Of a stretch of DNA of 64,000 nucleotides, positions 1 to 43,530 are shown in pieces. Under the pieces are notes generated by a model that ran no database searches, was not told the origin of the DNA, and worked only from the letters and a program-made list of their open reading frames with translations. The position numbers were made by a program, and so were the translations under genes. Source of the DNA: Closterium sp. NIES-65 (taxonomy: Eukaryota; Streptophyta; Zygnematophyceae; Desmidiales; Closteriaceae). Position 1 is the first letter of the stretch. Each line of letters starts with the position of its first letter. The stretch is taken from NCBI GenBank assembly GCA_948144175.1, contig CANXME010002675.1, positions 124,001 to 188,000 of the forward strand, read 5' to 3'.

Positions 1-789
1 TCGCAGCGAGTGCTGGTCTATGGCTCGGCCCAAGGCAGCTTTGCGCACCTCCTCCCCCACTCCGTCTGCTGCTGTTGCCCCCGGCAAGTACCCCATGGCT
101 AATTCCCGCTCCAAAGCCGTCAGCTCCTCCCATCTTTTCTTACGGTGATCATACACCATCCCTGGACCTGGAGTCCCTTCCACTTCGACAAATCCCCATG
201 CCTTTGCATAGGCCACCAGTGTCGGCCAGGCCCTCCTTGCTTCCCCCACTCGGTTACACTGATACTGTCGCGGATGATCTGGCTTTACCACTTGGGCGGC
301 CACTCTCCCTGGTTCCAGGATGTCTTCCACAATTCGACTCTCATCTCTCCACACCTTTGCTAATCTCGCCCTCAGTTCTCCTTCTGGCAGGACGTTCTGC
401 CATTACTGCCGCACTCTATGACACCTTGCCCCCAGCTGTGCCCCGTCACAACTCACTCCCCTTCCCAATTCTGCTTCCACTAGCTCGCGTACGGCTCGGA
501 CCGGCTCCCTGATATCACTCCTCATATCCACATGTTCTAGGATGTAAGCATATTCCCCGCCAGATTCTCTCGCCCACCTCATAATTGTCAGCAGTGTTGT
601 CACCATCGCCGTGCGGTCATCCTGCATTCCTCTTCCCTTCCCCGCTCGGGAAGTACCCTGGCACTCCCACCCTGCTACCAACAGGTCCACCTTTCCCCAG
701 CGGTTCACATCTTCCCTGGTAAGCTGTCCCACATCCCACTTCTCATTCTGCATGGCCTCCCGTATCACTTCCTTCGCCAGTTGAGCTGG
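1..789 (-). CDS. C-terminal half of C5 cytosine methyltransferase (pol fragment)
   Basis: This continues the methyltransferase after the chromovirus. Visible motifs: motif IV with the catalytic cysteine as GWECQGTSRAGKG (Cys codon 661-663; usual core PCQ, here ECQ), motif VI as ILEHVD (usual ENV), the RVRQ-x-WQN segment of motif VIII, and a motif IX/X-like end (LTALERELAMGY, then ALGRAI). The catalytic Cys remains while the neighbouring Pro and the ENV Asn differ, so activity is uncertain. A TAA at 403-405 interrupts the frame just before WQN. The fragment runs off the window edge, where RT would be expected. It is related to DNMT-type enzymes but not assigned to a named clade. Confidence 0.7.
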
Positions 790-794
790 GTACC

Positions 795-1160
795 TGTGAG
801 AGGACGTCCCCGTTATAATATTTTCTCACTAATATATTTTTCCGTTATCCTATTCTTCCTTTTCTCCTCTTTATTTTGGTCTTTATCTCATCTCAATCGG
901 CCTACTATTCTATTTTCTAAAGCCTTCTATTTATTTCTCTTATTTCCTACCTTTCCCACCGACATACCTATTACACGGCACCGACAGCGCCGACAGTGGT
1001 GTATACGATGTAATCTGGGCGTAATCCCAAGTGCCAATAGCCTTCGGGTGTGTTCCCGAAGGTTCGTTTTATCTCGTTTATCCTTGTACTTTCTGAGTAT
1101 AAATAGGCCTTGTATTCAGTTTTAGTGACAAGTTTCGATTGAGAATTCGATCCTGTGACA
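795..1160 (+). repeat. 5' LTR of chromovirus
   Basis: 366-bp LTR bounded by TG...CA. Compared with the 3' copy it lacks 36 bp near 1044-1051 (the segment after AATAGCCTT) and otherwise differs at two positions I can see. It carries a TATA-like box at 1098-1105. Confidence 0.9.
1098..1105 (+). promoter_or_regulatory. TATA-like box in 5' LTR
   Basis: TATAAATA lies about 55 bp before the LTR end, where a Pol II core promoter would start the genomic RNA. The same motif is at 6729-6736 in the 3' LTR. Inferred from sequence only. Confidence 0.5.
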
Positions 1161-1161
1161 C

Positions 1162-1176
1162 TTGGTAATCAGAGCC
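1162..1176 (+). other. Primer-binding site
   Basis: Immediately after the 5' LTR, TTGGTAATCAGAGCC resembles the usual plant initiator-Met-tRNA PBS (TGGTATCAGAGCC) with one extra A. This is where reverse transcription would be primed. Confidence 0.65.
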
Positions 1177-1268
1177 GTTCTCACTCGACGACTCTCGGCT
1201 AAGCAGCGGTCGCGGAAAAAATCGCCTCGAAAAACCGCCGGGGGCGACCAATTCGACGCCGAATTCTG

Positions 1269-1323
1269 GTAAGTACCAGTTCCGCGCTTTTCAAATTAAC
1301 CCCCTCGCGTGGTTTTTGAACAG
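1269..1323 (+). other. Candidate 55-nt leader intron before gag
   Basis: The leader has a consensus donor GTAAGT at 1269-1274 and a T-rich acceptor ending GAACAG at 1323, one base before the gag ATG region. Both sites fit the GT-AG consensus of other introns in the window. The intron is predicted only. Confidence 0.4.
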
Positions 1324-1324
1324 G

Positions 1325-2287
1325 ATGGGTTCGTCGGCGACCAACGACGTTACGCAGCAGCTCTTCGCGCAAATCGCCAAGATGGAAGCGGAGATGCGAG
1401 CGACGACTGAACGGTCACGATTGGAGAACGAGCAGCTGCAAAACGAACTCCAGCGCGTTACGCGGCTCCTCTTGACCATGAACATTCCTGCTTCGACGAC
1501 TTCGCAGCAAACGCAGCGTCAGTTTGAGGTTCCGAAACTTCGCTCGCCGGAATCGTTCGACCCTAGCGATCGAAAATCCGACGTCAGGCGGTGGCTCGCG
1601 ACGATGGAAATTTATTTTGCGGCGATCGGATGGTCGACGACGGAGTACAACGGCGAAAAAATTCGTCTCGCGACAACGTTGATGCGCGGTCCAGCTCTCG
1701 AGTGGCTCGGAAGCAACAGTAGCATTTTCCAGGGCGAAGCCACGTGGCAGCAGTTCCAGGCAGACCTTCTCAAACGTTTTGAGCCGATTAATTCCACTTA
1801 TATTGCGCGCGAAAAATTACATCACCATAGGCAATTCAGGAGTGTCGCGCAATACACGCAGCAGATGGAGGAATTTTATAATCACATTCCCGACATTACC
1901 GAGGGCGAAAAAATTCAGTCCTACATCGCGGGGCTGAAAACCGACATTCGGCGCCAGGTTGCTGCAGCGAACTACAGCAGCTACAGCGAAATCGTATCGG
2001 CCGCGTAGCGTTTTGACTTGGTCAACTCCGGAGCACGACGGCTCCACGTCGTCGGATCACGACAAGGGGATCGCTCGGCTTCAACCACGTTCGCCGACCC
2101 CATGGAAGTCGACAAATTCGACGCGAATTCACGACCTGCAAAAAACAAAACGTTTTGCAGATTTTGCGGCGGAAACGGACATCAAATTGTCGACTGTTTT
2201 CACATGAAATCTGCACGTGCGGCATTCCGAGCTCGTGGGAGTGGCGAAACTAAAGACAAAAAGTCAAAAAACGGATCTCGCCAGTGA
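1325..2287 (+). CDS. gag: Chromovirus Gag (one internal TAG)
   Basis: The ATG at 1325 is the first methionine after the leader. The N-terminus is a heptad-like coiled coil (about residues 10-50), followed by a Retrotrans_gag domain (RRWLATMEIYFAAIGW to LKTDIRRQV). A TAG at 2006-2008 interrupts the frame after VSAA, but reading continues in frame into the CCHC knuckle CRFCGGNGHQIVDC and a basic tail, ending with TGA at 2285-2287. Pol continues in another frame (-1), a usual gag-pol arrangement. The TAG is either a null mutation of CAG or a codon that is read. Confidence 0.8.
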
Positions 2288-3523
2288 TTGCGGATCGTGC
2301 TGGCGAGGAAAAGCAGATCCGAAAGCGTCAGCGCAATCTGGACCGAATTGAAATTGAAGGACAGCATTGGGCGCGAGATTTGGAGAATCAAGGGCGAAAT
2401 CCCAAGCCCCTTGACCGAAATTTGTCAGAGGAATTCGCCGAGGAAAAGAAAACCTCCGCGAAAACAGACTCGACCAAGACGGGAACTCTCCAATTCGACC
2501 CCGGAAAAAAACAGAATTTGTTAAAGTTATCTTTCAAAGATGCTTTAATGAAGACTGGCGATTTTCGCGGGTCCGGAGCCATAAACAAATTCCGGGAAGA
2601 ACTCCAGAGGAAGCAGACAATTAAAAAAGTGGTACCGGTGCCTACGGAGCTGGGAAAAAAATTAAGGAGTGTGGAAAGGAGTAGACCTTTTCACGGCGTC
2701 AACGTCCTCTCCCGGAACCAGCCCAAGACGACTCTCCACTCCCCAGGGAAGAAGTCTATGGAGCTGAAGCAGCTGAAGAGGCAGCTGGGAGTTCAAAAGA
2801 AGCTGCGAAAACTCCGAAAACCCCTCCAGGATGCATCCAGTGGATCGCAGGCGTCGACCGGATCCACCCCCTCAGGGTCAACTTGTACGGTTACTACCTC
2901 TACTCCTGGCGTTGGAGAAGAGCCTTTCTCCACGCAGCCCAGGCCAGCTAGTTGTCCAGAAGAAAACAGTGGAACCACGGTGTGTACTGAATATTGGGAT
3001 GTACCCTATGATCCTATTAACGAGACTATTTTTGAGTACTCCGAGCAACGCTCACCACTCCTGCTCGAGGTGATCTGCAACGGACAGCGCCTCCAAGCAC
3101 TCGTGGACAGCGGGGCGTCGCACAGCGTCTATGACAAAAGGCAATTGACCGACTCGGAGGTGTCATCAAGTTCTCAAGCTTCTCTGCAACGATGGTGGAT
3201 GGCAGTAAGCTACCTATCTACGGGAAACACGGTTGCTACTCCAGATTGGACCCCTTCAATGGAAGCCTGCTCTCCCCGTCACAAATATCAAAGGACTTGA
3301 CGTAATCTTCGGGAGAGACTTTCTTAAAAAGTTCAACCCCGAGATCAACTGGGTTAACCGGACGGCCAACATCAACAACGGGAGAAAAATCAGCCTTCCC
3401 AAATGGGACGACACGGGAAATATTCCAGTAGAGACACTCGCACGCTTTGAAAAGGACGTCAAACGGACCACGGCGGGATTCATGGCGATAGTCAACGAAG
3501 CAGACAACGGAGAGAAGCAGACC
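2288..3523 (+). pseudogene. Pol linker and aspartic protease, frameshifted
   Basis: Frame 1 opens at the gag stop with a long basic linker and reaches the protease active site ALVDSGASHSVYD (near 3094-3135). Sensible protease sequence then moves to frame 3 (GGVIKF, then MVDGSKLPIYGKH, about 3160-3225) and to frame 2 for PLQWKPALPVTN and GLDVIFGRDFL. Two indels are therefore needed, near 3155 and 3228. Frame 2 runs to a TAG at 3524-3526, beyond which RT continues in frame. The protease as written would not be made from one frame. Confidence 0.7.
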
Positions 3524-3526
3524 TAG

Positions 3527-5272
3527 GAACTTCCTCCAGCAGTCAAGAAAATTCTTGAAGAGTTCCAGGACGTTCTCCCCGACGATTTACCTGATCAACT
3601 ACCGCCATACCGAACACATCAACACGAGATCGTAGAAGAGCCGGGGTCCAAGCCAACGTTTCGAGCACCATACCGGCTGAGCCCGACAGAGCTTGCCGAT
3701 ATGAAAAAACAAATAGAGTATCTCTTGGAGAAAGGGCTGATTCGACCTTCGACTTCGCCGTACGGAGCTCCAGTTCTCTTCACTCCGAAACCAGACGGAA
3801 GTCTGCGAATGTGCATTGACTACCAAGCCTTGAACAAGCAGACTGTAAAAAATAAATACCCGATACCACGGATCGACGACTTACTCGATCAAATTCGCGG
3901 TGCTACGGTCTTCTCCAAGCTCGACCTCAGATCGGGATACTGGCAAATTCGTATGGCGGTTAACTCTATCCACAAAACCGCTTTTCGAACTCGGTACGGG
4001 TCATACGAGTATCTCGTAATGCCATTCGGACTCACTAACGCACCAGCCACATTTCAGGCGGAAATGAACCACATCCTTCGGCCCCTTCTGGACGAGTGCG
4101 TGGTGGTATATTTGGACGATATCCTGATCTACTCGAAAGATATGAAGCAGCACGTTGAGCATCTACGACGGGTGTTTGAAATTCTTCGACGAGAACGATT
4201 CTACGTGAAACTATCCAAGAGCGAGTTTGCGTTGAAAAAAGTCCAGTTCCTTGGACATATGGTGAGCGCTCAAGGAGTTCACGTGGATCCTAAGAAGATC
4301 GAAGCAGTGCGAACGTGGAAGACCCCTGAGAACGTGAAGGAGTTACAACAGTTCCTTGGATTCGCCAACTACTACAACCGGTTCGTACCGAACTACGCCA
4401 AGATTGCCGCACCATTAACGAACCTGTTGAAGAAGAATACACCATATCAATGGGAGGCGAAGCACCAGGAAGATGTGGAACAACTTAAAACCGCACTCAC
4501 GTCCGCACCTGTCCTTATCCTGCCAGACCCTGAACTTGACTATGTCATCGAGGCCGATGCTAGTGATCAAGCAGTGGGCGCAGTACTCATGCAGGATCAA
4601 GGGAAGGGACTGCAACCCATTGCATACCTCAGTAAAAAACTTCACGGTGCAGAACTCAATTACCCCATCCATGACAAAGAGGCCTTCGCCATCGTCAACG
4701 CATTTAAGGCATGGAGGTGTTATCTCGAAGGACGAAAAACGACCGTCTACACCGACCACTGCAGTCTCAAGTACCTGAAGACCCAACCAACACTTTCCAG
4801 GCGGCAGGTCCGGTGGATTGACTTTCTCGAAACCCACTTCCATTACGACATCGTGTATAAGCCGGGGCACAAGAACAAGGCAGACGCACTGAGTCGCCCT
4901 GCACACGTTGCCGCCTTACAAATCGATGGCATGAACCCACTTTTGAAGGGACTCTTCACGCATGGATACACCATCGACCCCGAAGTCTCTGTAGCAGAAA
5001 TGCGCCATCTTCTACAATGGGAACAAGACATCGCATACCGCAAGGGCTCAACAAAAATATGGGTACCTAATTACCCTCCTTTACGGCAGTTACTGCTCGA
5101 AGAATATCATGATGTTCTCTACGCGGGCCACTTCGGTAGTAACAAGATGCTTGCCGGTATTGCGAAGCATTATTATTGGCCCCACATGGCGGATGACGTA
5201 CAAAAATTCGTCACCTCGTGCGACACATGCCAACGGATGAAGAGCAGCAAACAGAAGAAAGCAGGGTTACTA
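3527..5272 (+). CDS. pol: Chromovirus reverse transcriptase, RNase H and integrase zinc domain
   Basis: One long open frame between TAG 3524-3526 and TAG 5273-5275. RT motifs run from the N-terminal [11 protein letters not shown] through [15 protein letters not shown] to the catalytic YLDD (4109-4120). RNase H follows with EADASD, HDKEAFA and [10 protein letters not shown]. The HHCC zinc domain of integrase is at the end (AGHFGSNKM, then SCDTCQRMK). No frameshift is visible across almost 600 codons. The TAG at 5273 sits in AGLL-x-PLPVPEQPW, where Ty3/gypsy elements normally have Gln. The annotated start by ATG at 3701 would omit the RT N-terminus, so the domain is better read as part of a longer Pol. 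Confidence 0.9.
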
Positions 5273-5275
5273 TAG

Positions 5276-6148
5276 CCCCTTCCTGTCCCTGAACAGCCTT
5301 GGCAAGTGGTTAGCTTCGACTTCATCACCGGGTTACCACCTACCAAAGCTGGTTACGACGCCATTCTAGTCGTCATCGACAAATTCTCCAAAATGGGACA
5401 CTTCATTCCGACACACACAACGGCTCGCACCGAGGAGACAGCGCAATTATTCTTCCGCTACGTCATCTCGCAACATGGCATTCCAACCACGCTGATCTCC
5501 GACAGAGACCCGAAATTCACAAGTAAATTCTGGAAGGAGCTCATGTCGCTCATGGGGACCAAACTCGCCATGTCATCAGCCTATCATCCCCAAACGGATG
5601 GTCAGACAGAGCGCCTCAACCAGATTGTCGAACAGCTTCTGCGAGCAGCGTGTAAGGACGATATCTCTAAATGGGATGTCCATCTGCCGGTTCTCGAGTT
5701 TGCGTATAACAACGCCACGCACGCCGCAACAGGGCAAACTCCTTTCTTCCTCTGTTACGGTCGCAACCCACTCACGCCTCAGAAACCAACAGTACCTGCC
5801 ACGGTGCAACCCGCACATGATTTCATTTCCACTATGCACCAATTGTGGGAGCGCACGCATAAACGTCTTCTGACTATCCAGCAGCAACAAAAGAAGCTCG
5901 CTGATCGGAGTCGCAACGATCATTCCATCAAGATTGGCGATCAAGTGCTTCTGGATACACGCAATCTCGACATTAGCCATCTTCCGTCTAAGCTCCGACC
6001 TCGCTTCTGCGGACCTTTTCTCGTCGAGGCGCAGGTCACTCCAGTAACCTTCCGCTTGCGTTTACCAGCTACCTGGAGAATTCACAATGCCTTCCATGTT
6101 CAACTTCTCAAGCCCTATCGGGACCCAAACACGGTCTTCAAAGGTCGC
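5276..6148 (+). CDS. Chromovirus integrase catalytic core and C-terminal domain
   Basis: It continues the RT frame after the TAG at 5273. The DDE triad is recognisable: Asp in VVSFDFITG, Asp in LISDRDPKF and Glu in QTDGQTERLNQ. The C-terminal GPFLVEAQVTPVTFRLRLP and HNAFHVQLLKPY segments are typical of gypsy integrases. It would insert the cDNA into chromosomal DNA. A TAG at 6149-6151 separates it from the chromodomain, again at a position (GR-x-LPPPLPVIV) where related elements have Gln or Pro. Confidence 0.9.
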
Positions 6149-6151
6149 TAG

Positions 6152-6379
6152 CTGCCGCCGCCACTGCCAGTGATCGTTAATGGGGAACCGGAGTACGAAG
6201 TCGAAGCCGTTCTGGCGCACCGACGACGACGTAGCGGCACCTTGGAGCTCTTGATTCGTTGGAAAGGCTTTGATCCTTCCGAGGATAGCTGGGTACGTGA
6301 ACACGATATGGATAACGCCCGCCGTCCTCTCCAGGACTACCTTGTAAAGCAGGGTGTTACTTCTACCACCCAGCTTTGA
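6152..6379 (+). CDS. Chromodomain at the Pol C-terminus
   Basis: In the same frame as integrase, YEVEAVLAHRRRRSG, LELLIRWKGF and DPSEDSWVRE form a chromodomain with the aromatic residues expected for a methyl-lysine cage. It ends in TGA (6377-6379). In chromoviruses this tail guides integration to marked chromatin. The stop overlaps the start of the polypurine tract. Confidence 0.85.
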   Translation: MPPPLPVIVNGEPEYEVEAVLAHRRRRSGTLELLIRWKGFDPSEDSWVREHDMDNARRPLQDYLVKQGVTSTTQL

Positions 6380-6389
6380 GGGGGGGAAG
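6378..6389 (+). other. Polypurine tract
   Basis: GAGGGGGGGAAG lies immediately before the 3' LTR, the expected primer site for plus-strand synthesis. Confidence 0.7.
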
Positions 6390-6791
6390 TGTGAGAGGAC
6401 GTCCCCGTTATAATATTTTCTCACTAATATATTTTTCCGTTATCCTATTCTTCCTTTTCTCCTCTTTATTTTGGTCTTTATCTCATCTCAATCGGCCTAC
6501 TATTCTATTTTCTAAAGCCTTCTATTTATTTCTCTTATTTCCTACCTTTCCCACCGACATACCTATTATACGGCACCGACAGCGCCGACAGTGGTGTATA
6601 CGATGTAGTCTGGGCGTAATCCCAAGTGCCAATAGCCTTGCGTGCTTATGCGCACTTGTGATTGTAGTATTGGGAAGGGTGTGTTCCCGAAGGTTCGTTT
6701 TATCTCGTTTATCCTTGTACTTTCTGAGTATAAATAGGCCTTGTATTCAGTTTTAGTGACAAGTTTCGATTGAGAATTCGATCCTGTGACA
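6390..6791 (+). repeat. 3' LTR of chromovirus
   Basis: 402-bp LTR, 36 bp longer than the 5' copy because it keeps the segment with CGTGCTTATGCGCACTTG. It has a TATA-like box at 6729-6736. It ends CCTGTGACA, followed by the right target duplication GTACT. Confidence 0.9.
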
Positions 6792-6796
6792 GTACT

Positions 6797-7805
6797 GCTG
6801 CTGCAGTATCTGTACATGCTTCCAAGCCATCCTCCTCACCTCTGGGTCTATTTCCACATACACCCATCTTATCACCTTCAGTGCTGCTTCCAATGCCGCC
6901 GCTAAGCCTGCCCCCAACCCTCCAAACAGCTCCACTAAGGTAACGCTATACTGGTCCACATTAGCTCCGACCTTGCCCTCTTTGGTACTCCCCCTCCTTA
7001 CGCTCTCTCTTCTCATGCCCTCCGCCCTCCAAGCCTTCTTCGGTTCTGTCTTGACAAACTGCACCGGCAGCTCACTCAACTCCTTTCCCTCGATCCAGAA
7101 ATCCGAGCGGTAGAGCACCTGTTCCTGCCAGGTACATATTGTTGTACCTATCTTGAACAGCAGCTCCATCCCCAGCAGAACATCATAATCCTCCGATTCC
7201 GTCAGCCCACGTTGCACTCTTATCGTCGTTTCTCCCTTCTCTCCCGGCTGCAGAGTGATCTTGATGAGGTCCTTAGTACAGGGCATCCACTTTGGTGCCC
7301 CGCCCTCGGCTGTCATGATCAGTATGCCTCTGTTTACTATTTCCAAGCCCCCATTCTCCCGTAACTGTTCTGTCAGCTTCCTTCCCAGCAGGACACTCTG
7401 TGCGCCTGTATCCACTACGGCGTTCTCCACTGGTATGCCCCTGACAGCCACTGCCTTAGGTTCTACCACCAGAGTCGTAGGTTGGCAGACAAGTCTCTCC
7501 TCAGGATGTCGTCGAGCCGTCCTCGGCTTATTACTTTCTTCTCGTTGCCGAGGGGTTCTCCTTTCAGGCTGCTTCTGCTCTGTCGTGCCATCCTTCCCAC
7601 CGTTGCGCAACCCCAACTCCTCTCGGTCTCTAGGTGGTATAGCCATGGCCCCGTACTCCGCCTCCTCTCTCTCATACTTCTCCTCTTCATCGTCCTCCCA
7701 AGCCAGCAATGCCTTCTCAGGGTCCTCACTAATCCCAGTCTTCTCCAGCTGTCCCTTCAGCTTTGCCAACTCTCTCTCTAACTGTAACTCCCTTGCCGAT
7801 TTTCC
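6797..7805 (-). CDS. Aspartic protease and N-terminal half of C5 methyltransferase (pol fragment)
   Basis: The open frame starts with a charged, glutamate-rich linker, then a retropepsin-like protease with VVDTGAQSVLLG (DTG codons 7404-7412) and the downstream hydrophobic DVLLGMELL element. After a basic linker comes methyltransferase motif I, VELFGGLGAGLAAALEAA (about 6908-6937 onward), followed by an acidic VEIDPEVRR segment that fits the SAM-binding motif II. The frame is cut at QQQY by the chromovirus and its target duplication. Removing the insert joins this fragment in frame to the one ending at 789, so the domain was continuous before insertion. Whether the ancestral enzyme was active is unknown. 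Confidence 0.75.
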
Positions 7806-7905
7806 TCACATTCTCTCTCCCTTGCTGTAGCACCTGTCTTCAGTATGCCCCCTCTTCCCACATCCGGTGCAGATAGGTGCCTTGGGGCAGTCCTGTCCCC
7901 CTCTT
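7806..7905 (-). CDS. Gag C-terminus with CCHC zinc knuckle
   Basis: The frame contains a CX2CX4HX4C knuckle at 7830-7871 (CTGCGKRGHTEDRC), the nucleic-acid-binding end of retrotransposon Gag. A TGA at 7806-7808 follows seven codons later, and the same frame stays open into the protease. It may be a genuine gag stop passed by readthrough, or CGA mutated to TGA. Nothing recognisable remains of the capsid region upstream. Confidence 0.65.
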
Positions 7906-8766
7906 GAAACAAGACTTAACTCAGTCTTGAGATAAGAGGAGGAGATAGGTGCCTTGGGGCAGATTTGTGCCTTGGGGAAGCCTGAGATACGAGGAGGGGA
8001 TCAGAACAGAGTGATTACATACGTCAAGAGGAAGAAGGGATGAGCTGGTCACCTGGATGAGAGGCGGAGGGAGAGGGAGGAGGAAGTCAGGCAGGGATTC
8101 AAGGGAGAGTGAGAAGGAAGGGACAGCAGAGGGGGATTCACGACAGGGGTCAACCGAAAAGCAGTCGACTTTAAGCTCAATCCAAGGTGAAAATAGAAAT
8201 TAAGGAGCAACACGAAGGGATGTGTGTGCAAAATCATTGATGGCAGAAGGTCAATGGACAAGAGCAGCCAAGAAGGATGAGCAAGAAGCAAGCAGGAAAT
8301 GGAGTAGAAATGCCTCAGGAACAAAACAAACTTTGAAAAAGTGCCTTTCCATTTTTTTGACTTCAGAGCCCTGGATGAACTCGAACTCTCAGCTCTGTAC
8401 AGAATCGTGGCTTCACTCTCCCTTACCAACCAGCAGGGAGGTCTTAGCCAGAGTCGTGTCAGACTCAGTTTGCTGCTTGTGCATGTTTGCAGACAGACAC
8501 TGCTGCGTGTGGTCATTCCACACCCTCAAATCTCTTCTACCTTGCAACCCACAGTCACATGGCTCCAGTCGCATGCGCGCTACCAGTACCAAGACCACAG
8601 GATACAGCAAAGGAGAGGATGGTGGTCAGCGGAGCTGATGCGAGTGGAAATAGGGGAAAATGGAATGCGCGCGTCACGACTAGCATAAAGAGGAGGAGAA
8701 ATGGTGGGGAGTAGAGGAGAGATGGACCTAGAGTACAGCCAAGCAAAGGACTTGTTGGGGGCTTAC
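7906..8766. other. Junction region, no gene seen
   Basis: Between the retrotransposon remnant and the last L1 LRR exon. It includes a partial duplication of the knuckle-encoding DNA (about 7946-7980) and, at about 8470-8660, a block that recurs at about 12975-13165 in an L1 intron. I see no conserved coding frame. Confidence 0.5.
8470..8660. repeat. Duplicated intron block (copy 1)
   Basis: Near-identical to about 12975-13165, including ACAGACACTGCTGCG, the shared CAAATCTCTTCTACCTTGCA and ACCAAGACCACAGGATACA. It shows that L1 exon-intron units were copied as blocks. Confidence 0.7.
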
Positions 8767-11700
8767 AGAGTGTTCAGTTTTGCAAGGTTGCCAATTTCTG
8801 CAGGAATTGTGCCATTGAGCTTATTGACAGAAAGTGATCTGAAATGACAGAACGGGTATGCGGTAGATATAGGAAGCTCAAGTTTGCGTGGCAATGAGCG
8901 ACAGATAGGATGAAGCAAGCAACTTTCTGACATTGCACGAAATGTAGCACGATGGAGATTGTTGGTGGGATGTGTGCTGGCTCTGGCACGTGATAGATGG
9001 GGGCAGAGTAGTGAGGAGAGAAGTGCACTTTGTGTGCCTCAAGGAGTGTCATCAACGCATAGAATGGTCACGGAGAAGAGCGCATGGGATATGTGGGTTT
9101 CTGAAACTGGTCCGTGACCAACCGAACCAGTTCATTTGTCAAATTGTCCATTTAGGCGCTAGAGGTACAGGTTCGGTACAGTAATAAACGGCCCAGTTCA
9201 GGGCAAATCGGGTCGGTTCGGTCCAGTTCGGTAAAATTCTCCAGTCCAACTGTGACCTCTAGTAGAGACTTTTTTCAATGTGCGTTTCCTTTGTAGTGTG
9301 TAGCTTGTATATCTTGCATACATGCTTGGTGGTCGTGTGTTTACATCCCTAGTTCCCTGCACTCCTGGGCTCACTTCAGGAGAAGTGAAAAGAGACGTGT
9401 TCTTTTTCTGCCCCAAGGCACATCATAATTTGCACAGGTAACTGAGAGCATGGGAGAGAGAAGAACAGAGGCGATGGCAAGACAGCGGCAAAAAGAAAGT
9501 AAAGAAGTGGAGAGAAAATGACAAGTAGAAAGGTTGTGCTGAGAGAGTAGGCCTGAGCAAAGGTCGATTCCAAAGGCCGGGGTCCATTGTTAGTCATTGT
9601 GTTTGGGTGGACCCAGACTGGATTGACGTAGACGTGGCCGTGATATGGCAAAAGAAAGAGCTCACTTTCCCCGCTTCCAGCGACAAGGCACTAACCACTC
9701 GTGATTCATAGCATCAACTGGAGAGGAGATAAGAAACAAGAGCACACCAAGCCAAGCAAAGGCCTTGCAGGGCAGCTTACAGGTAATTCAAGTTTGCAAG
9801 GCTGCTGATTTCAGAGAGAATAAAGCCAGGCATGCGTGTCCAACTTAGGATTCTCTTAGCATGGAATTTAGATCTACATCCCCGGCAATGTAGGAAATCT
9901 CCTCTGTGGGCTCCTTCTTCACAGCAATTCCTGGCGGCCTTTCTGCTTCCTCCCGTCTTATTCCCAAGATCCACTTTCCAGAAAACGCCTCAGAGCTACC
10001 AGTGTGTTCCCTTTGCGTCGCCACCCTCCTATCAACGAGCGTGTCTCCTAGCACCAACCCACGCTCTCCATGCCAATCTGCACGCTTAGCAGACACTACC
10101 TCCAGTCTCTGAACTATGCCCCACATAGACATGTGCATTTGTACGAGTTTCAAAACACTCGACTCGTTCCCTGCACTCGTCACGGGCCGAGTGACGAGTG
10201 AGAGGATCGGTCGCAAAAACTCGGCCGAGCCAAGCCGAGTTTTACTCGGCAAGTTACGCAAAACTCGTCAGAAACTCATGAACCGTGTGCGTATGTTTTT
10301 GGGACTCGTGAGCATATTTGGACGTGTGAGTCTACAAGGATTTAGCAAGTTTCAAAAAACGTCGTCCGACATTTGGGGAGGGGAGGGGTAAGCAATGACA
10401 GCACGATGTATGGTGTGTTACCCCCCCCCCTATGTTCCCATACACTAGGTTTTCCTCTTCGGAGCTTCACCTAGCCTGTGAGTAACTTTGGGGGTAAGGA
10501 GTGAAACCCTAACCCCTGGGGCACGGTTCTCTTCTGAGCTACCTTGGCCAGGCTAGTCCTGAGCCGGGGTTACGACGAAGTCATACAAGCCAAAAAAAAA
10601 AAAAAAAAAAAAAAGTGGGTAACTTTGGTGGCCTAGCTGCCTGCAGTAGCCCATGATCCACATAACAATATTTTAATACTGTTCGTTACCTCCTCTGTCA
10701 TGCCTCCACTCCTTGTTCCCTAAAAAAATTTGCTTTTCATCACACCACCACTTCGATTCGAACAACTTTGACCCGAACTGATTGGGGTTTGGTACTCGCT
10801 CACGCCTACTTACAGGCGGTTTAGGTTTGTAAGCATGCCAATTGCGGTGGGGATTGAGCCAGTGAGCTGGTTGTTTTGAAGATATCTGCAATGATGAGCA
10901 CGAATGGGCACGCATAGAATTGAGCTAGGGACTAGCTCCAGTGGGAGGTAGAATTAACATTGCATAGAAATGAACTGGGGATAGAACAAATCAACTCTAG
11001 TGGGAGGCAGAATTCCTGTAACAGAGGTGCGAAAGGCTGCACGATAGACTTTGTCCGTGAGATGTGGGCTGACAATGGCAGAGGATAGAAGGGATCAGGA
11101 AAAGTGAGAAGAGATGTGTTCATTGCCAGCCCCAAGGCACCTCATAATTTGTGCTGGGAACTGAGCATAGGGGGGGGGGAAGAACAGCGGCGATGCCAGG
11201 ATAATGGCAAAAGTAGCACACGGAAGTGGAGGAAAAAGCACGGTTAACGAGTAAAAAGGTTGCACAGAAAGGGTAGGCCTGAGCAAAGGTTCAGGTCGGG
11301 TCAGGTCAACTGCAAAGTTTTGGCCGGGGCCTCTTGTTACTCATTCGGTTCGGGTGACACTAGCTTCACCTGATTGACGTGGCCATGGCCATGGTTGAAA
11401 GAAAGCTGGAGCTCACTTTCTACGCTTCCAGCAACAACAAAATAGCCACGTGTGTTTCGTACTGGGCTTGCTTCAGAACATCTTGGCTACCGAACTTGGA
11501 TCTTTTTGAGTTGAAGTGCACGAGAACCCATTCAGGCTCCAACTTGAGGAGTTGAACATCAAACCATAAATTGTTCAGGGTGGTTCTCAACCCGAACCAA
11601 AATGGTTTGGTTTGTTAGACTATTCCCCTGACTTCAAGCAGATTTGACTGAACCAGTTCAGGTTGGGTACTTTCTCACGCCTGCTTACAGTTGCTGCAGG

Positions 11701-21697: not shown

Positions 21698-21806
21698 TTA
21701 TCCGCCGCGCGCCCCGTGGTGCGCGGCATTGCTTTTTCATCCCGCCACGCGCTTCGAACGCGTGGCGGCCTTTTCTGCCCGCCGCGCGCTCGGGGCGCGC
21801 GGCGGT
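21698..21806. repeat. Array of three GC-rich hairpins
   Basis: CCGCCACGCG-CTTCGAA-CGCGTGGCGG (21742-21768) and CCGCCGCGCG-CTCGGGG-CGCGCGGCGG (21780-21806) have perfect 10-bp arms and 7-nt loops. A less perfect one (GCCGCGCGC/GTGCGCGGC) is at about 21701-21727. They are separated by about 11-15 nt. Confidence 0.75.
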
Positions 21807-22119
21807 TTTCCCGTCCGTCGGAGCGCCCTCGGGGGGGCCTGCGCGCTGCCCTTCCCGCTGCTCGTCGCGACGTCCGTGCGGGACCCGCGGGGCGTCGCCG
21901 CTGCTCGTCACGGCGCCCCCTGCGGGACCCGCGCGGCGTCGCCCTGCTCGTCGCGACGTCCGTGCGGGACCCGCAGGGCGTCGCCCCTGCTCGTCGCGAC
22001 GCCCCCTGCGGGACCCGCGCGGCGTCGCCCTGCTCGTCACGACGCCCCCTGTGGGACCCGCGGGGCGTCGCCCCTGCTCGTCGCGACCCCCCCCTGCGGG
22101 ACCCGCGGGGCGCCGTCAG

Positions 22120-26657: not shown

Positions 26658-29600
26658 TCACCAAACGAATCTATTAAGAAGGCTCACTTCATCGTCCTCA
26701 CATGAGGGAACAATGTGTACGAGACTGAGAATGCAGTCGACATCAATCAGTGTAAAATCATCCTCGCCCTCTGTGGGTAGAAGGCGCTTGCATCCCGTTG
26801 ACGGGCATAGTCGCTTGTCCTCGGTGTAATACTACACGTATGCTCCGCGCCTCAGCTCCCCATCTTTGTTGTAGTGAAACAGGACAAGACAACGGCCGTA
26901 CCAGGGGGACCCCTTCCCTGCAGGGTTGATTGCAACAGATGAGAAGTTCTTCTTGCCCGGGCTAGCCTTGACAAACTGCCCCCTTGACGTCCATTCCATC
27001 TTGTCGTGGGGCGGAATCGCAAGTGCCGTGTGCACCTGAAACCACGAGCATGAACCAAGAAAATGTGAAACCAGCGAAAGAGGCGGCGGAGAGCATAGCG
27101 AAAGGGGGAAATTGGCCAAGGGCTGGAGTGGGTGGAAAAGCATTTTGGAGAGGAGGAAGGGGGGCTGGAGTGGGTGGAAAGCATTTTGGAGAGGGGGAAG
27201 GGGGGCTGGAGTGGGTGGAAAGCATGCAGGAGAGGGGGAAAGGGGGCTGGAGTGGGTGGAAAAGCATTTTGGAGAGGGGGAAGGGAGGCTGGAGTGGGTG
27301 GAAAGCATTTTGGAGAGGGGGAATGGGGGCTGGAATGGGTGGAAAGCATGCAGGAGAGGGGGAAGGGGGGCTGGAGTGGGTGGAAAGCATGCAGGAGAGG
27401 GGGAAGGGGGGCTGGAGTGAGTGGAAAGCATGCAGGAGAGTGGGAAGCGGGGCTGGAGTGAGTGGAAAGCATGCAGGAGAGGGGGAAGGGGGGCTGGAGT
27501 GAGTGGAAAGCATGCAGGAGAGGGGGAAGGGGGGCTGGAGTGAGTGGAAAGCATGCAGGAGAGGGGGAAGGGGGGCTGGAGTGGGTGGAAAGCAGGCAGG
27601 AGAGAGGGAAACGGAGCTGGAGTGAGTGGAAAGCATGCAGGAGAGGGGGAAGCGGGGCTGGAGTGAGTGGAAAGCATGCAGGAGAGGGGGAAGGGGGGCT
27701 GGAGTGAGTGGAAAGCATTTTGGAGAGGGGAAAGGGGGGCTGGAGTGGGTGGAAAGCATGCAGGAGAGAGGGAAGGGGGGCTTGAGTGGTTGGAAAGCAT
27801 GCAGGAGAGGGGGAAGGGGGGCTGGAGTGAGTGGAAAGCATGCAGGAGAGGGGGAAGGGGGGCTGGAGTGGGTGGAAAGCATGCAGGGGGAAGGGGGGCT
27901 GGAGTGGGTGGAAAGCATGCAGGAGAGGGGGAAGGGGGGCTGGAGTGGGTGGAAAGCATGCAGGAGAGGGGGAAGGGGGGCTGGAGTGGGCGGAAAGGAT
28001 GCAGGAGAGGGGGAAGCGCGGCTGGAGTGAGTGGAAAGCATGCAGGAGAGGGGGAAGGGGGGCTGGAGTGGGTGGAGAGCATGCAGGAGAGGGGGAAGGG
28101 GGGCTGGAGTGGGTGGAAAGCATGCAGGAGAGGGGGAAACGGGGCTGGAGTGAGTGGAAAGCATGCAGGAGAGGGGGAAGGGGGGCTGGAGTGGGTGGAA
28201 AGCATGCAGGAGAGGGGGAAGGGGGCCTGGAGTGGGTGGAAAGCATGCAGGAGAGGGGGAAGGGGGGCTGGAGTGGTTGGAAAGCATGCAGGAGAGGGGG
28301 AAGGGGGGCTGGAGTGAGTGGAAAGCATGCAGGAGAGGGGGAAGGTGGGCTGGAGTGGTTGGAAAGCATGCAGGAGAGGGGGAAGGGGGGCTGGAGTGAG
28401 TGGAAAGCATGCAGGAGAGGGGGAAGGGGGGCTGGAGTGGGTGGAAAGCATGCAGGAGAATGGGAAGCGGGGCTGGAGTGGGTGGAAAGCATGCAGGAGA
28501 GGGGGAAGGGGAGCTGGAGTGAGTGGAAAGCATGCAGGAGAGGGGGAAGGGGGGCTGGAGTGGTTGGAAAGCATGCAGGAGAGGGGGAAGGGGGGCTGGA
28601 GTGAGTGGAAAGCATGCAGGAGAGGGGGAAGGGGGGCTGGAGTGGGTGGAAAGCATGCAGGAGAGGGGGAAGGGGGGCTGGAGTGAGTGGAAAGCATGCA
28701 GGAGAGGGGGAAGGGGGGCTGGAGTGAGTGGAAAGCATGCAGGAGAGGGGGAAGAGGGGCTGGAGTGGGTGGATTCGGCGGCAGTGAGAAAAAATGGCAT
28801 ATCCATACGACCGGTTTAGCACCTGCAAAACTTGCGTGTTGATGCCTGCTTGTCTGAGTCGCAGAACCATCGCACTCATGGCGGGTTCACCAACAGTCAA
28901 GACGTAGCTCCGAAACACTGAGTCGGTGATGTCCCCAAGGACCATCTTCTTGTGGGTCTTAGTAAGCACCCTCCGGCCAGCCAGGCATGCCTGTCACCGT
29001 GGAGAGGAGAGGGTTGGTATAGGGAGGGGGAGGGTTGTATGGTGAGTCCTTTTGGAGGGAGGAGGAGGGGGGGGGGATAGGGGATGGATGCGAGGTGTAG
29101 GCGAAGAAGGGAAAGGCCACGAAGGGGGAATGGGTGTGGGGGAAAGGGGGAGAGGTTGTGGGGACGAAGAAGGTTATGGGGGGGTAGGAATCGATTACTT
29201 TGGTTAGGTTGGTCCTAAATGTGATTGCCAACTCATGCAGAGAGCATGGAAACAGAAATGCGGGCAAAGAGACGAGCGAACAGAACGTGGCACAGAGCAG
29301 GGCAGACACAGAAGTGAACAAATCAGGGAAGCGGTGAAGGGAACAGAGCGGGGCACAGAGCAGGGCAGACACAGAAGTGAACAAATCAAGTAAACAGTGA
29401 AGGGAACAGAGCAGGGCACAGAGCAGGGCAGACACAGAAGTGAGAAATCTGGGAAACAGTGAAGGGAACAGAGCGGGGCACATAGCAGGGCAGACACAGA
29501 AGTGAACAAATCAGGGAAACAGTGAAGGGAACAGAGCGGGGCACATAGCAGGGCAGACACAGAAGTGAACGAATCAGGGAAACAGTGAAGGGAACAGAGC

Positions 29601-37832: not shown

Positions 37833-40800
37833 ATGGCAGACATCATCGTTTCTGAACAGGCCAATGCTAGTGTGCTCCTCGGTAGCGCTGGAGCTTTACA
37901 TCCCTCGAGCGACGCGAAAACCGACGCGGAACAGCAGCTGCACGACAAGATGACGCCTCACGATACCTCCCAGCTAGTTGTGCGGTATCGTCGGAAGAAC
38001 ACACTTCCTGCACGCGATGCCAAGGTGGAATCGAAAGGGGCATCTTCATTAGATAGTGAGCAATCTGAAGAAGAGGCCTACGATGGCAAGGTTAGACGCG
38101 GCGGTTCATGCGGGTGGAGGAACGGTCGAAAGCTGAAGTCGTTGGACCAGTGCAAACCTGCTACGGGGAGGAAAGGTACGCAATGAGCTTTTATCCAGCT
38201 TCTTCAAGTTTGCATGTCTTAAAGTTGCTCGTTAATAATTTGGATGTGTTCACACCCAATCCAAAAAGGTGCTGCCCTCCTATTAACTGAGCGTATCGTC
38301 CTTACTTCATGCGTATTGTAGGTACCTTCGATGGAGCCAATAAAAATAAGAAAGAAAGATAAGACGCGGCTGGTGCAACAGGAATCGTGCAAGATGTAGA
38401 TGACAAGGAGCAACTGCTAGAGAAAGGGCATAAGCGTGGGGATGAGCGTGATGGAGAGCGTGAGGGCAGGCGTGAGGGAGGGCTTGAGGGCAGGCGTGAA
38501 GGCAGGCGTGAGGGCAGGCGGGAGGGAGAGCGTGAGGCTGAGCGTGAGGGAGAGCGTGAGGGAGAGCGTGAGGGAGAGCGTGATGTTAAGCGTGAGGGAG
38601 AGCGAGAGGGAGAGCGTGAGGGAGAGCGTGATGTGAAGCGTGAGGGAGACCGTGATGTGAAGCGTGTGGGGGAGCGTGGGGTGAAGCGTGAGGGAGAGTG
38701 TGATATGAAGCATGATGAGTCTTCTCCCTCTACTCCAGCAGGTGTTCGTGCGGCGGATGCACATAATGTTCGAGGGCATGAGGAGGGTGGGAGGGAGAGC
38801 CGTGGCGCTGAGCTAGAAGATCAGAGGGGGGTGTCAGGGAGGGTGAAGGCACAGTCCAGAAAGGCTGGAAAGAAGGCCGCTGCTGAGGTCAAATCTTCTG
38901 ATGGAGAAGATAGTTCTGAGGAGGAATCAGGGAGTTCATCCGCAAGCGAGGAGAAGTATGATGAGGAAGAGGACGAGAGTGATGACGCTGAAACTGGGTC
39001 CGGGAGTGATGACGACGGTAGGAGAGGGGGGTGGGCGCGAGGAGCGCGCAACCACCGCTATAGCGGAAAGCGTGGTCATGCAACCGGTGGTAAGGCTGGT
39101 AGTGGACGTAAACGGCAGAGACGTAGAGAGTGCGCTCAAGGAAAGCGAGCAGATACTGAGGGTTACGCCCGGCGGCGTTTTAAGGAGCGTCCTGTTGTGA
39201 GACAGGACGTTGGCTTCTACAATGAGATGAGGACCATGGTGAACTCGGATGATGCTGGTCCGTCGAATCGTCGGGAGAACGTTCGGATGAAACGGGCAGC
39301 AACCAACGATCCGTATGCTGCCCTTGCTTCCACCTCAGGATTGGGAAAGAGAGCATCTAGATTTCAAGATTCAACTGTGCGTGACAACGCTGGCCAGCAG
39401 CATGACAACACGCACAATCCAGCCAGTGGTAGTGACGATCCGGCCTGTGGTGGGGGGCTGGGGGCGGAAGATGGTGAGGCGGGTGGTGTTGGAGATTGGT
39501 TCAATGATGGCAGGAAAGTTGGACGCTCTGACCCAGCAACTCCACCCCCGTTCGCATCGGCAAGAGGCGATTCCCCGCTCGACGCTAGCAGAGTGCCCAT
39601 CATTACCTCGAGCAATTCTCGTAATGAATCCATGCAGCAACTCTTCCAGGCATTGCAGGAAGCTAATCGGTAGATTGCCGAGCTAAAGTCCGGTCGTGGA
39701 CCTTCGCTGGACTGGGGGGGAAGTGGGACGCAAATCCCGCCACTTACCTCGATATCCAGTGAACAACCTGAGCCGCCTGAAACGCCGGGCGCTGTGGCGG
39801 AGAGCGCTGTACAAGGCACTCCCATCACCAGGAGGCATGGGATGCCAAACACGACTAATTTGAAGGTAAGTGCCACCAATTTCTCCTACCGATTGCCACA
39901 CCTGACTCGCTAGCGTGCTCATTATATGGTTTTGTTTGACCAATGGTGCATATTTAATACTCTTTCTCCAATTGTCTAGTTTTTCCCACTCTCTGGTCAC
40001 ATTCCCACTCTCTGTTTTCCTTCTCTGCAGTGATTCATTCTCATCCCACCCTCTAGTCTCATTATCTGCAGTGACTCATTCATATTCCCGCTCTCTGGTT
40101 TCCTTCTCTGCAGTGATTCATTCTCATCCCACCCTCTGGTCTCATTCTCTGCAGTGACTCATTCACATTCCCACTCTCTGGTTTCCTTCTCTGCAGTGAT
40201 TCATTCTCATCCCACCCTCTGGTCTTTTTCTCTGCAGTGACTCCCACTCTCTGGTTTCCTTCTCTGCAGTGATTCATTCTCATCCCACCCTCTGGTCTCA
40301 TTCTCTGCAGTGACTCCCACTCTCTGGTTTCCTTCTCTGCAGTGATTCATTCTCATCCTACCCTCAAGGCTCATTCTCTGCAGTGACTCATTCACATTCC
40401 CACTCTCTGGTTTCCTTCTATGCACTGATTCATTCTCATTCCCACCCTCTGGTCCCATTCTCTGCAGTGACTCATTCACATTCCCAATCTCTGGTTTCCT
40501 TCTCTGCAGTGATTCATTCTCATCCCACCCTCTGGTCTCATTCTCTGCATTGACTCATTCACATTCCCACTCTCTGGTTTCCTTCTATGCAGTGATTCAT
40601 TCTCATCCCACCCTCTGGTCTCATTCTCTCGCTGGTCATTCACATTCCCACTCTCTGGTTTCCTTCTCTGCAGTGATTCATTCTCATCCCCACCCTCTGG
40701 TCTCATTCTCTGCAGTGACTCATTCACATTCGCACTCTCTGGTTTCCTTCTCTGCAATGATTCATTCTCATCCCACCCTCTGGTCTCATTCTCTGCAGTG

Positions 40801-43530
40801 ACTCCCACTCTCTGCTTTCCTTCTCTGCAGTGATTCATTCTCATCCCACCCTCCGGTCTCATTCTCTGCAGGGACTCCCACTCTCTGGTTTCCTTCTCTG
40901 CAGTGATTCATTCTCATCCCACCCTCTGGTCTCATTCTCTGCAGTGACTCCCACTCTCTGGTTTCCTTCTCTGCAGTGATTCATTCTCATCCCACCTTCT
41001 GGTCTCATTCTCTGCAGTGACTCCCACTCTCTGGTTTCCTTCTCTGCAGTGATTCATTCTCATCCCACCCTCTGGTCTCATTCTCTGCAGTGACTCCCAC
41101 TCTCTGGTTTCCTTCTCTGCAGTGATTCATTCTCATCCCACCCTCTGGTCTCATTCTCTACAGTGACTCCCACTCTCTGGTTTCCTTCTCTGCAGTGATT
41201 TATTCTCATCCTACCCTCAAGGCTCATTCTCTGCAGTGACTCATTCACATTCCCACTCTCTGGTTTCCTTCTATGCACTGATTCATTCTCATTCCCACCC
41301 TCTGGTCCCATTCTCTGCAGTGACTCATTCACATTCCCACTCTCTGGTTTCCTTCTCTGCAGTGATTCATTCTCATCCCACCCTCTGGTCTCATTCTCTG
41401 CAGTGACTCATTCACATTCCCACTCTCTGGTTTCCTTCTATGCAGTGATTCATTCTCATCCCACCCTCTGGTCTCATTCTCTCGCTGGTCATTCACATTC
41501 CCACTCTCTGGTTTCCTTCTCTGCAGTGATTCATTCTCATCCCCACCCTCTGGTCTCATTCTCTGCAGTGACTCATTCACATTCGCACTCTCTGGTTTCC
41601 TTCTCTGCAGTGATTCATTCTCATCCCACCCTCTGGTCTCATTCTCTGCAGTGACTCCCACTCTCTGGTTTCCTTCTTTGCAGTGATTCATTCTCATCCC
41701 ACCCTCTGGTCTCATTCTCTGCAGTGACTCCCACTCTCTGGTTTCCTTCTCTGCAGTGATTCATTCTCATCCCACCCTCTGGTCTCATTCTCTGCAGTGA
41801 CTCCCACTCTCTGGTTTCCTTCTCTGCAGTGATTCATTCTCATCCCACCCTCTGGTCTCATTCTCTGCAGTGACTCCCACTCTCTGGTTTCCTTCTCTGC
41901 AGTGATTCATTCTCATCCCACCCTCTGGTCTCATTCTCTGCAGTGACTCCCACTCTCTGGTTTCCTTCTCTGCAGTGATTCATTCTCATCCCACCCTCTG
42001 GTCTCATTCTCAGCAGTGACATATACTCATTCCCAATACCCCACATTCCCATTCTTTGGTTTACCCTACATTCTCATTTTAAACAGCTGTACACGGAAGA
42101 AGCAAGGAAGCGCATGTCTATGGAAGCTGAGGACCATCTTTTCACGTTCTACCCAAGCTTTGAGAAGCGGATTCTTGTTTTGCATGAAGTCATTTCTGAG
42201 CATTATGTGGTTCCATTGATATTGCTGAAGGAGGCCATGGCGGATAAAACACGGAGGGATGCATTCAAGCGCGTGTATACGCAGTGGAAGAACGAGCGCG
42301 GGTTTTACGTCAAACGGACCGTGCTCAAGGGGTTGGGGGTTCCTATGAGTGGCTTGCGGGCAGCGGAAATCCACATCAACACTGAGCTCAAGGAGGATCT
42401 CTGGGGGGAGTATGGCCCGAGTGAGTAAACACCTGCCTGACCTTTTCCCCCACCCTCCCCCCCTCCTCCTTGTTTCACCATCTCAGCCCTAGCACCCGTT
42501 TCTTGCAACACCCCATATCTGTACTCCATAGCTTGGCGTTTCCTTTACATGGACCGTTGTAGAAACCTGTGATTCGCCAGCCCATCCACCCTCTTCCCTT
42601 TTCACACCCCACCCATTGAACCATCTTCGTTCGCCTGTGTTGCAGGTGCCGACGCCCAACTGAGCACATGGGGAAATGCTGAGGTTACTGATCTCCCGTT
42701 CGGCAACGAGATCTTCTTCAACGCAGCAATGGACGCCTTTGGTGAATTTGCCATGGGGAACGACATATGCTTGAAGGCGTATCATGTTGCCTGGACTATC
42801 TTGGTGGTGAGTGGCTTGTGAGGGTCCTTTTACTTGTTTCTCATCCCACACTTTTCTCCTTGGTAAACCCGTGCCATCCCGTGTAAACCTTAAACCCCCG
42901 TGTTTCCACCTCCCTCTCAGGTGCTTCTTGAAACCTTGGTATCCACCTGCCCAGGGGAGTTGCGCCCACTCTGGGTTCACGATTTCACTCACGGGCTTAC
43001 GTTGTTAATATTTTTCACCAATCCCCTCACGTCCATGCAGTACCCATCAGTATCCTTCCCCTCCCGTGTTTCCGAACACTCTTTGGTTTCCTCTTCCTTT
43101 CAGAAGCTGCCCCACTCCTCTATCACCTTTCATGCTCACACTCTACCACCATGGCATACTTCACTGGATGTTGTGCTTGCCCCACATGATTCTGACCTCT
43201 CACACTTATCACGCTTGAATCTGTCCATGCTCCCCTATTTTGACAATGTAGATTGACTACGGCTTGTCGAAGGTCAAGAAGTCGACGATGAACCTCACAA
43301 ACTCCCACCGAAAGAACACGCGGTGGGTGGCAAGCATCCGCAGGGCGGTGAAGCGGGCAGTGACGGATCATTTCAGCCAAGTGAACCCTGTCTACGACCC
43401 ACGGATGAAGGGGTTTAGGTGGGGGAATTTTGGCTTGTTCGTCCATGAGTCGGGGTTCGAGGAGTATAGGCCAAGACCACAACCCTGCAATCCGACAAGG
43501 AGGGTGGCGTCAGTGCACGTCTAGAGGAGA
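37833..43530 (+). CDS. Gene A: charged protein of an unrecognised family, paralogue of gene B
   Basis: Exons: 37833-38175, 38322 (or 38382)-39865, 42087-42420, 42646-42806 and 43252-43530. Phases agree with gene B at every homologous junction. Exon 1 has SQLVVRYRRKN and an acidic patch. Exon 2 starts with an RE-rich repeat (EREGEREGERDVKREG-like), then an acidic, basic and GLN-rich stretch. Exons 3-5 hold the most conserved part: FYPSFEKRILVLHEVISE, KRVYTQWKNERGFYVKR, GLRAAEI, LKAYHVAWTILV, NSHRKNTRWVASIRRAVKR and GFRWGNFGLFVHESGFE. A TAG at 39671-39673 interrupts exon 2 although homology to gene B continues to the donor. TAG 43522-43524 is followed by RR and TGA 43528-43530. With a 38322 start, exon 2 also has TAA 38360-38362. 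Function unknown; nuclear location is only suggested by composition. Confidence 0.65.
38440..38715 (+). repeat. RE-rich coding repeat in gene A exon 2
   Basis: Repeats of 12-bp CGTGAGGGAGAG encode EREG/GERE-type residues, with occasional DVKREG. Gene B has a different repeat in the equivalent exon. Confidence 0.7.
39866..42086 (+). other. Gene A intron 2 with minisatellite rich in acceptor-like sites
   Basis: From about 39990 to 42020 the intron consists of roughly 27 units of 73-79 bp, each with two TTCTCTGCAG-type motifs (TTTCCTTCTCTGCAG and CTCATTCTCTGCAG). An 853-bp higher-order duplication is visible (40476-40862 repeats at 41329-41715). The true donor is GTAAGT at 39866. The true acceptor inferred from homology is AACAG at 42086, just downstream of the array. 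Confidence 0.85.

Follow-up and report, generated by a model that had tools for sequence, protein, structure and literature searches.

Interrupted copy of a methyltransferase-bearing Ty3/gypsy retrotransposon in Closterium sp. NIES-65, with a predicted role in methylation of its own cDNA

Retrotransposons are ordinarily on the receiving end of DNA methylation, and an element that carries a methylase of its own under strong purifying selection makes the gain from self-methylation testable. This question is raised by one end of a 64,000-nucleotide stretch of Closterium sp. NIES-65 DNA (assembly GCA_948144175.1, contig CANXME010002675.1, positions 124,001 to 188,000; hereafter the window), where motifs of a C5 cytosine methyltransferase (MTase) lie beside those of a protease. 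The original prediction placed this MTase between the protease and the expected reverse transcriptase (RT) of a long terminal repeat (LTR) retrotransposon. Does the MTase belong to such an element, and what would it do there? With moderate confidence, we explain the locus as a broken copy, split by another Ty3 element, of a numerous Ty3/gypsy family, likely of Closterium, whose intact members encode gag, protease, a DNMT3-related MTase, RT, RNaseH, and integrase in one open reading frame (ORF), with the MTase predicted to methylate the element's own complementary DNA (cDNA) before integration.

The window copy and its intact counterparts

All of the predicted motifs are present on the minus strand, which reads, from 7907 to 1, CCHC knuckle, TGA stop, DTGA protease, MTase motif I, a gap, motifs IV, VI, and VIII, a TAA stop, and motifs IX/X. 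The zinc knuckle (CTGCGKRGHTEDRC, 7830 to 7871) is the same string as the third of three knuckles in the intact copy L034, and gag-like similarity upstream in the window copy begins only at 7895. An in-frame TGA (7806 to 7808) lies between the knuckle and the retropepsin-like protease (7158 to 7448), whose match to the Pfam family gag-asp_proteas (PF13975) is weak support, at 21.4 bits (E 4e-4) under the cut-off of 28.2. The N-terminal part of the MTase (6792 to 6950) was assigned from motif I (LVELFGGLGAG) and alignment with L034. The middle part (406 to 795) holds motif IV (ECQ, 658 to 666), motif VI (EHV, 529 to 537), and motif VIII, and this piece alone matched PF00145 just above the cut-off of 22 (23.2 bits, E 5e-5); pieces 6792 to 7805 and 1 to 402 had no MTase match in Pfam. 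An in-frame TAA (403 to 405) precedes the C-terminal part with motifs IX/X-like (1 to 402), the frame of which continues into an RT left of the window. The claim that these domains form one polyprotein path within the window fails, because the two stops and a plus-strand Ty3/gypsy element (795 to 6791) interrupt it. The MTase element of the window is a broken copy.

L034 matches the window at 95.4% DNA identity over 6792 to 7892 and at 97.0% over 1 to 794. Because both pieces match this intact copy, and their matches share 5 bases of it, the overlap expected from a 5-bp target duplication, they represent one gene; the duplication around the nested element reads GTACC/GTACT, with 4 of 5 bases matching. 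The RT and integrase had been predicted to lie left of position 1. In the stretch fetched there (L009), which continues the window copy, the RT was found in a frameshifted state, but its match stops before the integrase region. After this broken RT, about 1.1 to 1.6 kb left of the window, lies an inverted copy of the A repeat described below (510 bases, 94.7% identical to that of L034). Because of this inverted repeat of about 0.5 kb, we regard the window copy as rearranged and not just shortened.

We searched the genome (874 Mb, 2400 contigs) with three queries. The 130-residue middle MTase piece of the window, as the query for its own subfamily, gave 1052 candidates, of which 150 were scored. 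Among these, 48 were at least 96% identical over residues 1 to 130 (the window itself and 47 others), and 22 of the 47 others sit within open frames that span 2000 amino acids or more. These 47 copies led us to abandon the idea that the window copy came from an old and rare subfamily. The PF00145 profile gave 901 candidates (123 scored), and the MTase domain of the copy L012 gave 1467 (122 scored); 40 of the latter 122 matches lie in stop-free open frames of at least 2000 amino acids, and 14 have a stop inside the match. Six MTase matches, five from the L012 query and one more from the window piece, lie within 190 kb of one contig (G000:C1367, 249312 to 439635).

Twenty stretches were fetched, 19 from the PF00145 matches, chosen mostly for long frames, together with L009. 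Eight of them (L010 to L017) combine, in a single ORF of 2134 to 2321 amino acids, two or three CCHC boxes with protease, MTase, RT, and integrase strings. The Pfam order in L012 is zf-CCHC, protease, DNA_methylase, RVT_1, RNaseH, H2C2, and rve (PF00665); this is the Ty3/gypsy order of protease, RT, RNaseH, and integrase with the MTase placed after the protease, and no recombinase family was found in L012 at E 0.01. L034 has a 2084-amino-acid ORF with three CCHC boxes, DTGA, WECQ, EHVD, CGDFR, and TDQG; its repeats are identical, and a target duplication of 4 bp flanks it. Intact copies of this abundant Ty3/gypsy family are single ORFs running from gag through protease, MTase, RT, and RNaseH to integrase. 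The predicted position of the MTase, between the protease and RT of an LTR-type retrotransposon, is thus upheld by intact copies such as L034 and L010 to L017, which carry RT and integrase downstream.

Split repeats and target duplications

Under a plain LTR reading, a TG...CA-ended element with a target duplication was found in none of 11 copies. Because that reading gave no convincing target duplications, a split-repeat reading was tried. The layout is A1-ORF-B1-GC-A2-B2, that is, DIRS-like split direct repeats (A-coding-B-A-B), and in place of the same complete LTR at both ends, the element begins with A and finishes with B. The A repeat measures about 0.4 to 0.8 kb and is 97 to 100% identical; the B repeat measures 0.14 to 0.26 kb where cleanly measured (L011, L022, L024, L025, and L034). 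With the element ends read as TGTC...GACA, all 11 copies whose two ends were located have an exact 4-bp target duplication (GAGG, CATC, GTAG, TGCC, ACTC, TCTC, ATAC, ACCG, ACGC, AGTT, and AGCA). The right end of L018 was not located, and within the fetched stretches, the left repeat was not found for L019 and L028, nor was the repeat pair for L010, L012, L015, L026, and L027; other fetched 10-kb stretches without an end or a repeat pair likewise stand outside the 11. The B1/A2 junction is GACA-GC-TGTC, with GATA in L020. In five of six copies, a purine-rich string, GRRRGGGGGCA, immediately precedes B1 or opens it, and the sixth, L016, has an interrupted B1.

This layout suggests that the repeat in reverse transcription would be B-GC-A, bounded by a polypurine tract ahead of B1 and a primer site behind A1, and that the A2/B2 boundary would be the meeting point of the two cDNA ends. 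The integrase would then open a two-LTR-like circle at the internal GACA-GC-TGTC, giving the circularly permuted genomic form. In the array L023 (G000:C995, about 460042 to 475156), three MTase copies lie head to tail at a spacing of exactly 7064 bases, joined at GACAGCTGTC, with the GACA-GC-TGTC junction between them; this array fits a circular or tandem intermediate, but it could also result from recombination.

The order A-coding-B-A-B is that of DIRS/PAT elements, some of which also have a methyltransferase domain (PMC4157794), and a DIRS-type mechanism, in which a B1-A2 splint joins the cDNA ends and no two-LTR-like circle is opened, is a real possibility, if not a probable one. However, DIRS/PAT elements are described as being without an integrase gene (PMC4157794), whereas the Closterium elements have a DDE integrase (rve, PF00665) and exact 4-bp target duplications, and the purine-rich string stands at the B1 start as it would at the start of an LTR. 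This combination casts doubt on split repeats as a diagnostic feature of tyrosine-recombinase elements and suggests an integration route that would be traceable in extrachromosomal circular DNA.

The methyltransferase domain

Among solved C5-MTases, DNMT3 is the nearest to the element's domain by both profile and fold. A structure search returned DNMT3A in the PDB (E 1e-18), and the fold is DNMT3-like with confidence. Likeness to animal DNMT3A/B/C extends to an unpermuted motif order and to the AHRxRxxW and ERExxMG...LGR blocks, whereas the element's MTase sits in a polyprotein, has WECQ in place of SPCN, and showed no ADD or PWWP match in L012. DNMT3, with SPCN as motif IV in the human DNMT3A, is a better yardstick for this domain than a bacterial PCQ enzyme. 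Across 81 MTase domains pooled from all sources, the PCN expected of DNMT3 occurred in none and WECN in one, so that profile and fold place the MTase as DNMT3-related and no closer. A viral origin was rejected after one IMG/VR scan found no relative. In a viral structure library, phage, giant-virus, and herpesvirus MTases matched at 9 to 28% identity, and their best E of 5e-16 is only roughly comparable with the DNMT3A value because the libraries differ.

Motif IV in the 81 domains is WECQ in 59, WPCQ in 16, and others in 6; motif VI is EN- in 72, EH- in 6, and others in 3. The catalytic Cys is kept in all 81, and the motif VI Glu is kept in 80. The original prediction had singled out ECQ and EHV in place of PCQ and ENV, and both are present, but they are not local oddities. 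Intact copies keep ECQ: WECQ was found in 26 of 26 ORFs with a G-x-[EP]-C-[QN] string in the first set of genome loci, and L034, L035, L036, and L037, of the window's own subfamily, carry both WECQ and EHV. Because these four copies carry both, we consider the motifs inherited and not products of decay, and we no longer read EHV as a mutation peculiar to the window copy.

Selection was tested with the Nei-Gojobori method on thirteen pairs of copies. The ratio of nonsynonymous to synonymous substitution (dN/dS) in the MTase was 0.066 for L002-L006 (dS 1.22), 0.057 for L018-L005 (dS 1.05), 0.096 for L018-L026 (dS 0.19), and 0.066 for L010-L020 (dS 0.15); in the last three of these pairs, the RT gave 0.032, 0.084, and 0.085, respectively. 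The MTase is under strong purifying selection. These four pairs (0.057 to 0.096) lie within the Ka/Ks of <0.2 of elements like KnitGypsy-Dnmt3 of Klebsormidium nitens, the published precedent (de Mendoza et al. 2018, PMC5890265), and the very young pairs and L012-L014 lie above it. The remaining pairs had a dS of >3 or were saturated.

Given its place beside the protease and RT, the MTase would enter particles together with them and could methylate new cDNA before integration. Inserts would then resemble already methylated self DNA, or they would damp their own expression. In the original prediction, a self-encoded methylase could alter host silencing of the element, an effect that stays hypothetical. 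Methylation of cDNA by a packaged MTase was argued by de Mendoza et al. for their elements, and de novo CG methylation was shown for SymbioDIRS domains (PMC5890265). We infer both cDNA self-methylation and integration from a circle from the sequences, and several points weigh against this proposal. The circle model is drawn from the layout of the repeats. The replacement of the motif IV Pro by Glu may compromise catalysis, and the K. nitens MTase domain gave a negative result in yeast that its authors consider inconclusive (PMC5890265). In the very young pairs, dN/dS in the MTase was 0.25 to 0.37, a range based on few changes, and other domains reached 1.2; the distant pair L012-L014 gave 0.24 in the MTase. 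Finally, CpG observed/expected was 0.71 to 0.82 in 11 MTase-bearing copies versus 0.64 in the rest of the window, and it was 1.16 in the one MTase-less Ty3 measured, the nested element. Against the surrounding window, CpG depletion as a sign of self-methylation is unsupported.

The Pro-to-Glu exchange, present in 59 of the 81 domains, and the yeast result would also suit a catalytically dead domain that the particle keeps in order to bind DNA or RNA. We think this unlikely in view of the near-invariant catalytic Cys and motif VI Glu, the purifying selection, and the confident DNMT3-like fold. It is likewise improbable that host chromatin or RNA, and not element cDNA, is the target of an MTase working in trans. 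A PHD finger, which in other proteins is often a histone reader, lies on the C-terminal side of P0089, a relative in the second group described below, and of P0095, in the first group. However, no chromatin-reading domain was found in L012 by Pfam, and the CpG levels have no element-specific signal in either direction.

Relatives, precedents, and other features of the window

An intact copy finds its best protein matches in Closterium, a desmid of the class Zygnematophyceae, among them fragments of strain Naga37s-1 at up to 94%. Relatives among the protein matches listed (120 of 223 in one listing) come from Closterium NIES-53, -54, -65, -67, and Naga37s-1, Haematococcus lacustris, metagenomes, Sphagnum magellanicum, S. 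compactum, and S. balticum, and the liverwort Calypogeia fissa; no Klebsormidium protein is among them. Because the bryophyte matches lie on contigs of 13 to 67 Mb, contamination is argued against. Stand-alone C5-MTases are common and the window pieces lie 6 kb apart, but a host or bacterial MTase gene in which gag-protease sequence landed by chance is highly improbable. It is refuted by the many intact copies, which join all four domains (protease, MTase, RT, and integrase) in an unbroken frame and also have repeats and target duplications; the recurrence of this domain order in proteins of other Closterium strains and metagenomes speaks against it as well.

The MTase precedes the RT in 46 rows (the first group) and follows RT/RNaseH in 17, four of them from Haematococcus (near-duplicates included); in this second group, the MTase lies between RNaseH and integrase. 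One branch parts the two orders in quick trees of both the MTase (98, 66 rows) and the RT (100, 30 rows). With the MTase tree rooted, weakly, on human DNMT3A alone (three stretches, on a very long branch), the second group is nested, and P0070 and P0100 of the first group branch near the base; therefore, MTase before RT may be the older order. The two orders may reflect one capture with relocation or two captures, and both fit a comparison that includes one MTase-less RT. A 610-amino-acid metagenome protein, P0136, has an MTase of this lineage with motif PPCQ and PF12237 (source label); the protein holds no RT and is possibly a stand-alone relative.

KnitGypsy-Dnmt3 resembles the Closterium elements in its Gypsy domain composition, a DNMT3-related domain in the Pol ORF, a charophyte host, and a DIRS-like repeat order, and it has fewer copies than the elements in Symbiodinium (PMC5890265); the likeness is one of description. 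SymbioDIRS-Dnmt3 shares a DNMT3-type domain in Pol, split repeats, and two domain orders in one host but has a tyrosine recombinase and a dinoflagellate host (PMC5890265). DNMT-bearing retrotransposons are thus already known, with some DNMT3 members residing in retrotransposons of streptophytes and dinoflagellates (2025, PMC12344493), and the domain set and repeat order are shared with KnitGypsy-Dnmt3. Methylase-bearing transposons were said to be absent from land plants such as tracheophytes (2019 opinion, PMC6338049). In the literature searched, with most subscription journals outside it, PMC5890265 is the sole report of a charophyte Gypsy element that bears a DNMT, and its excerpts make no mention of target duplications, ECQ, Closterium, bryophyte, or Haematococcus hosts, or a second Gypsy architecture. 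The Closterium family is not described in excerpts of PMC6338049, PMC12344493, PMC9861306, PMC4157794, PMC9915684, and PMC9033089. Relative to this literature, what is new is the set of hosts (Closterium, bryophytes, and Haematococcus), the second domain order, the WECQ shared across the family, and the pairing of a DDE integrase with split repeats that are flanked by exact target duplications.

With relatives in Sphagnum, Calypogeia, and Haematococcus, the known host range becomes wider. We advance tentatively the broader idea of a Ty3/gypsy clade across green algae and bryophytes that captured a DNMT3-related WECQ methylase, whose DDE integrase would recognize GACA-GC-TGTC in the repeat and integrate a circle, yielding permuted copies of DNA methylated before insertion. 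The genome supplies many near-identical recent copies and MTase-less Ty3 controls, and the relatives supply natural motif IV variants.

The nested Ty3/gypsy element in the MTase gene (795 to 6791, plus strand) has terminal repeats at 795 to 1160 (366 bases) and 6390 to 6791 (402 bases) and its own Pfam domains for Ty3 capsid (gag), RT, RNaseH, and integrase. Its ORFs lie in differing frames, so that it looks broken as well, and the four scanned had no MTase match. Elsewhere in the window, eight other ORFs scanned had no Pfam match, and an Rfam scan gave no match at the gathering threshold, leaving doubtful a tRNA-Arg (CCG) called by ARAGORN at 21738 to 21824 on the minus strand. Many of the window's long open frames are explained by long tandem arrays at 27120 to 28773, 39997 to 42022, 45790 to 46450, and 60038 to 60957, whose units include ones of 41, 73, 18, and 117 bases. 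Finally, single leucine-rich repeat blocks (for example, LSVNKLNGTIPAEIGNLAKLNTL) occur in separate open stretches at 8760 to 9067 and in L009, and they resemble exons of a plant-type receptor gene.

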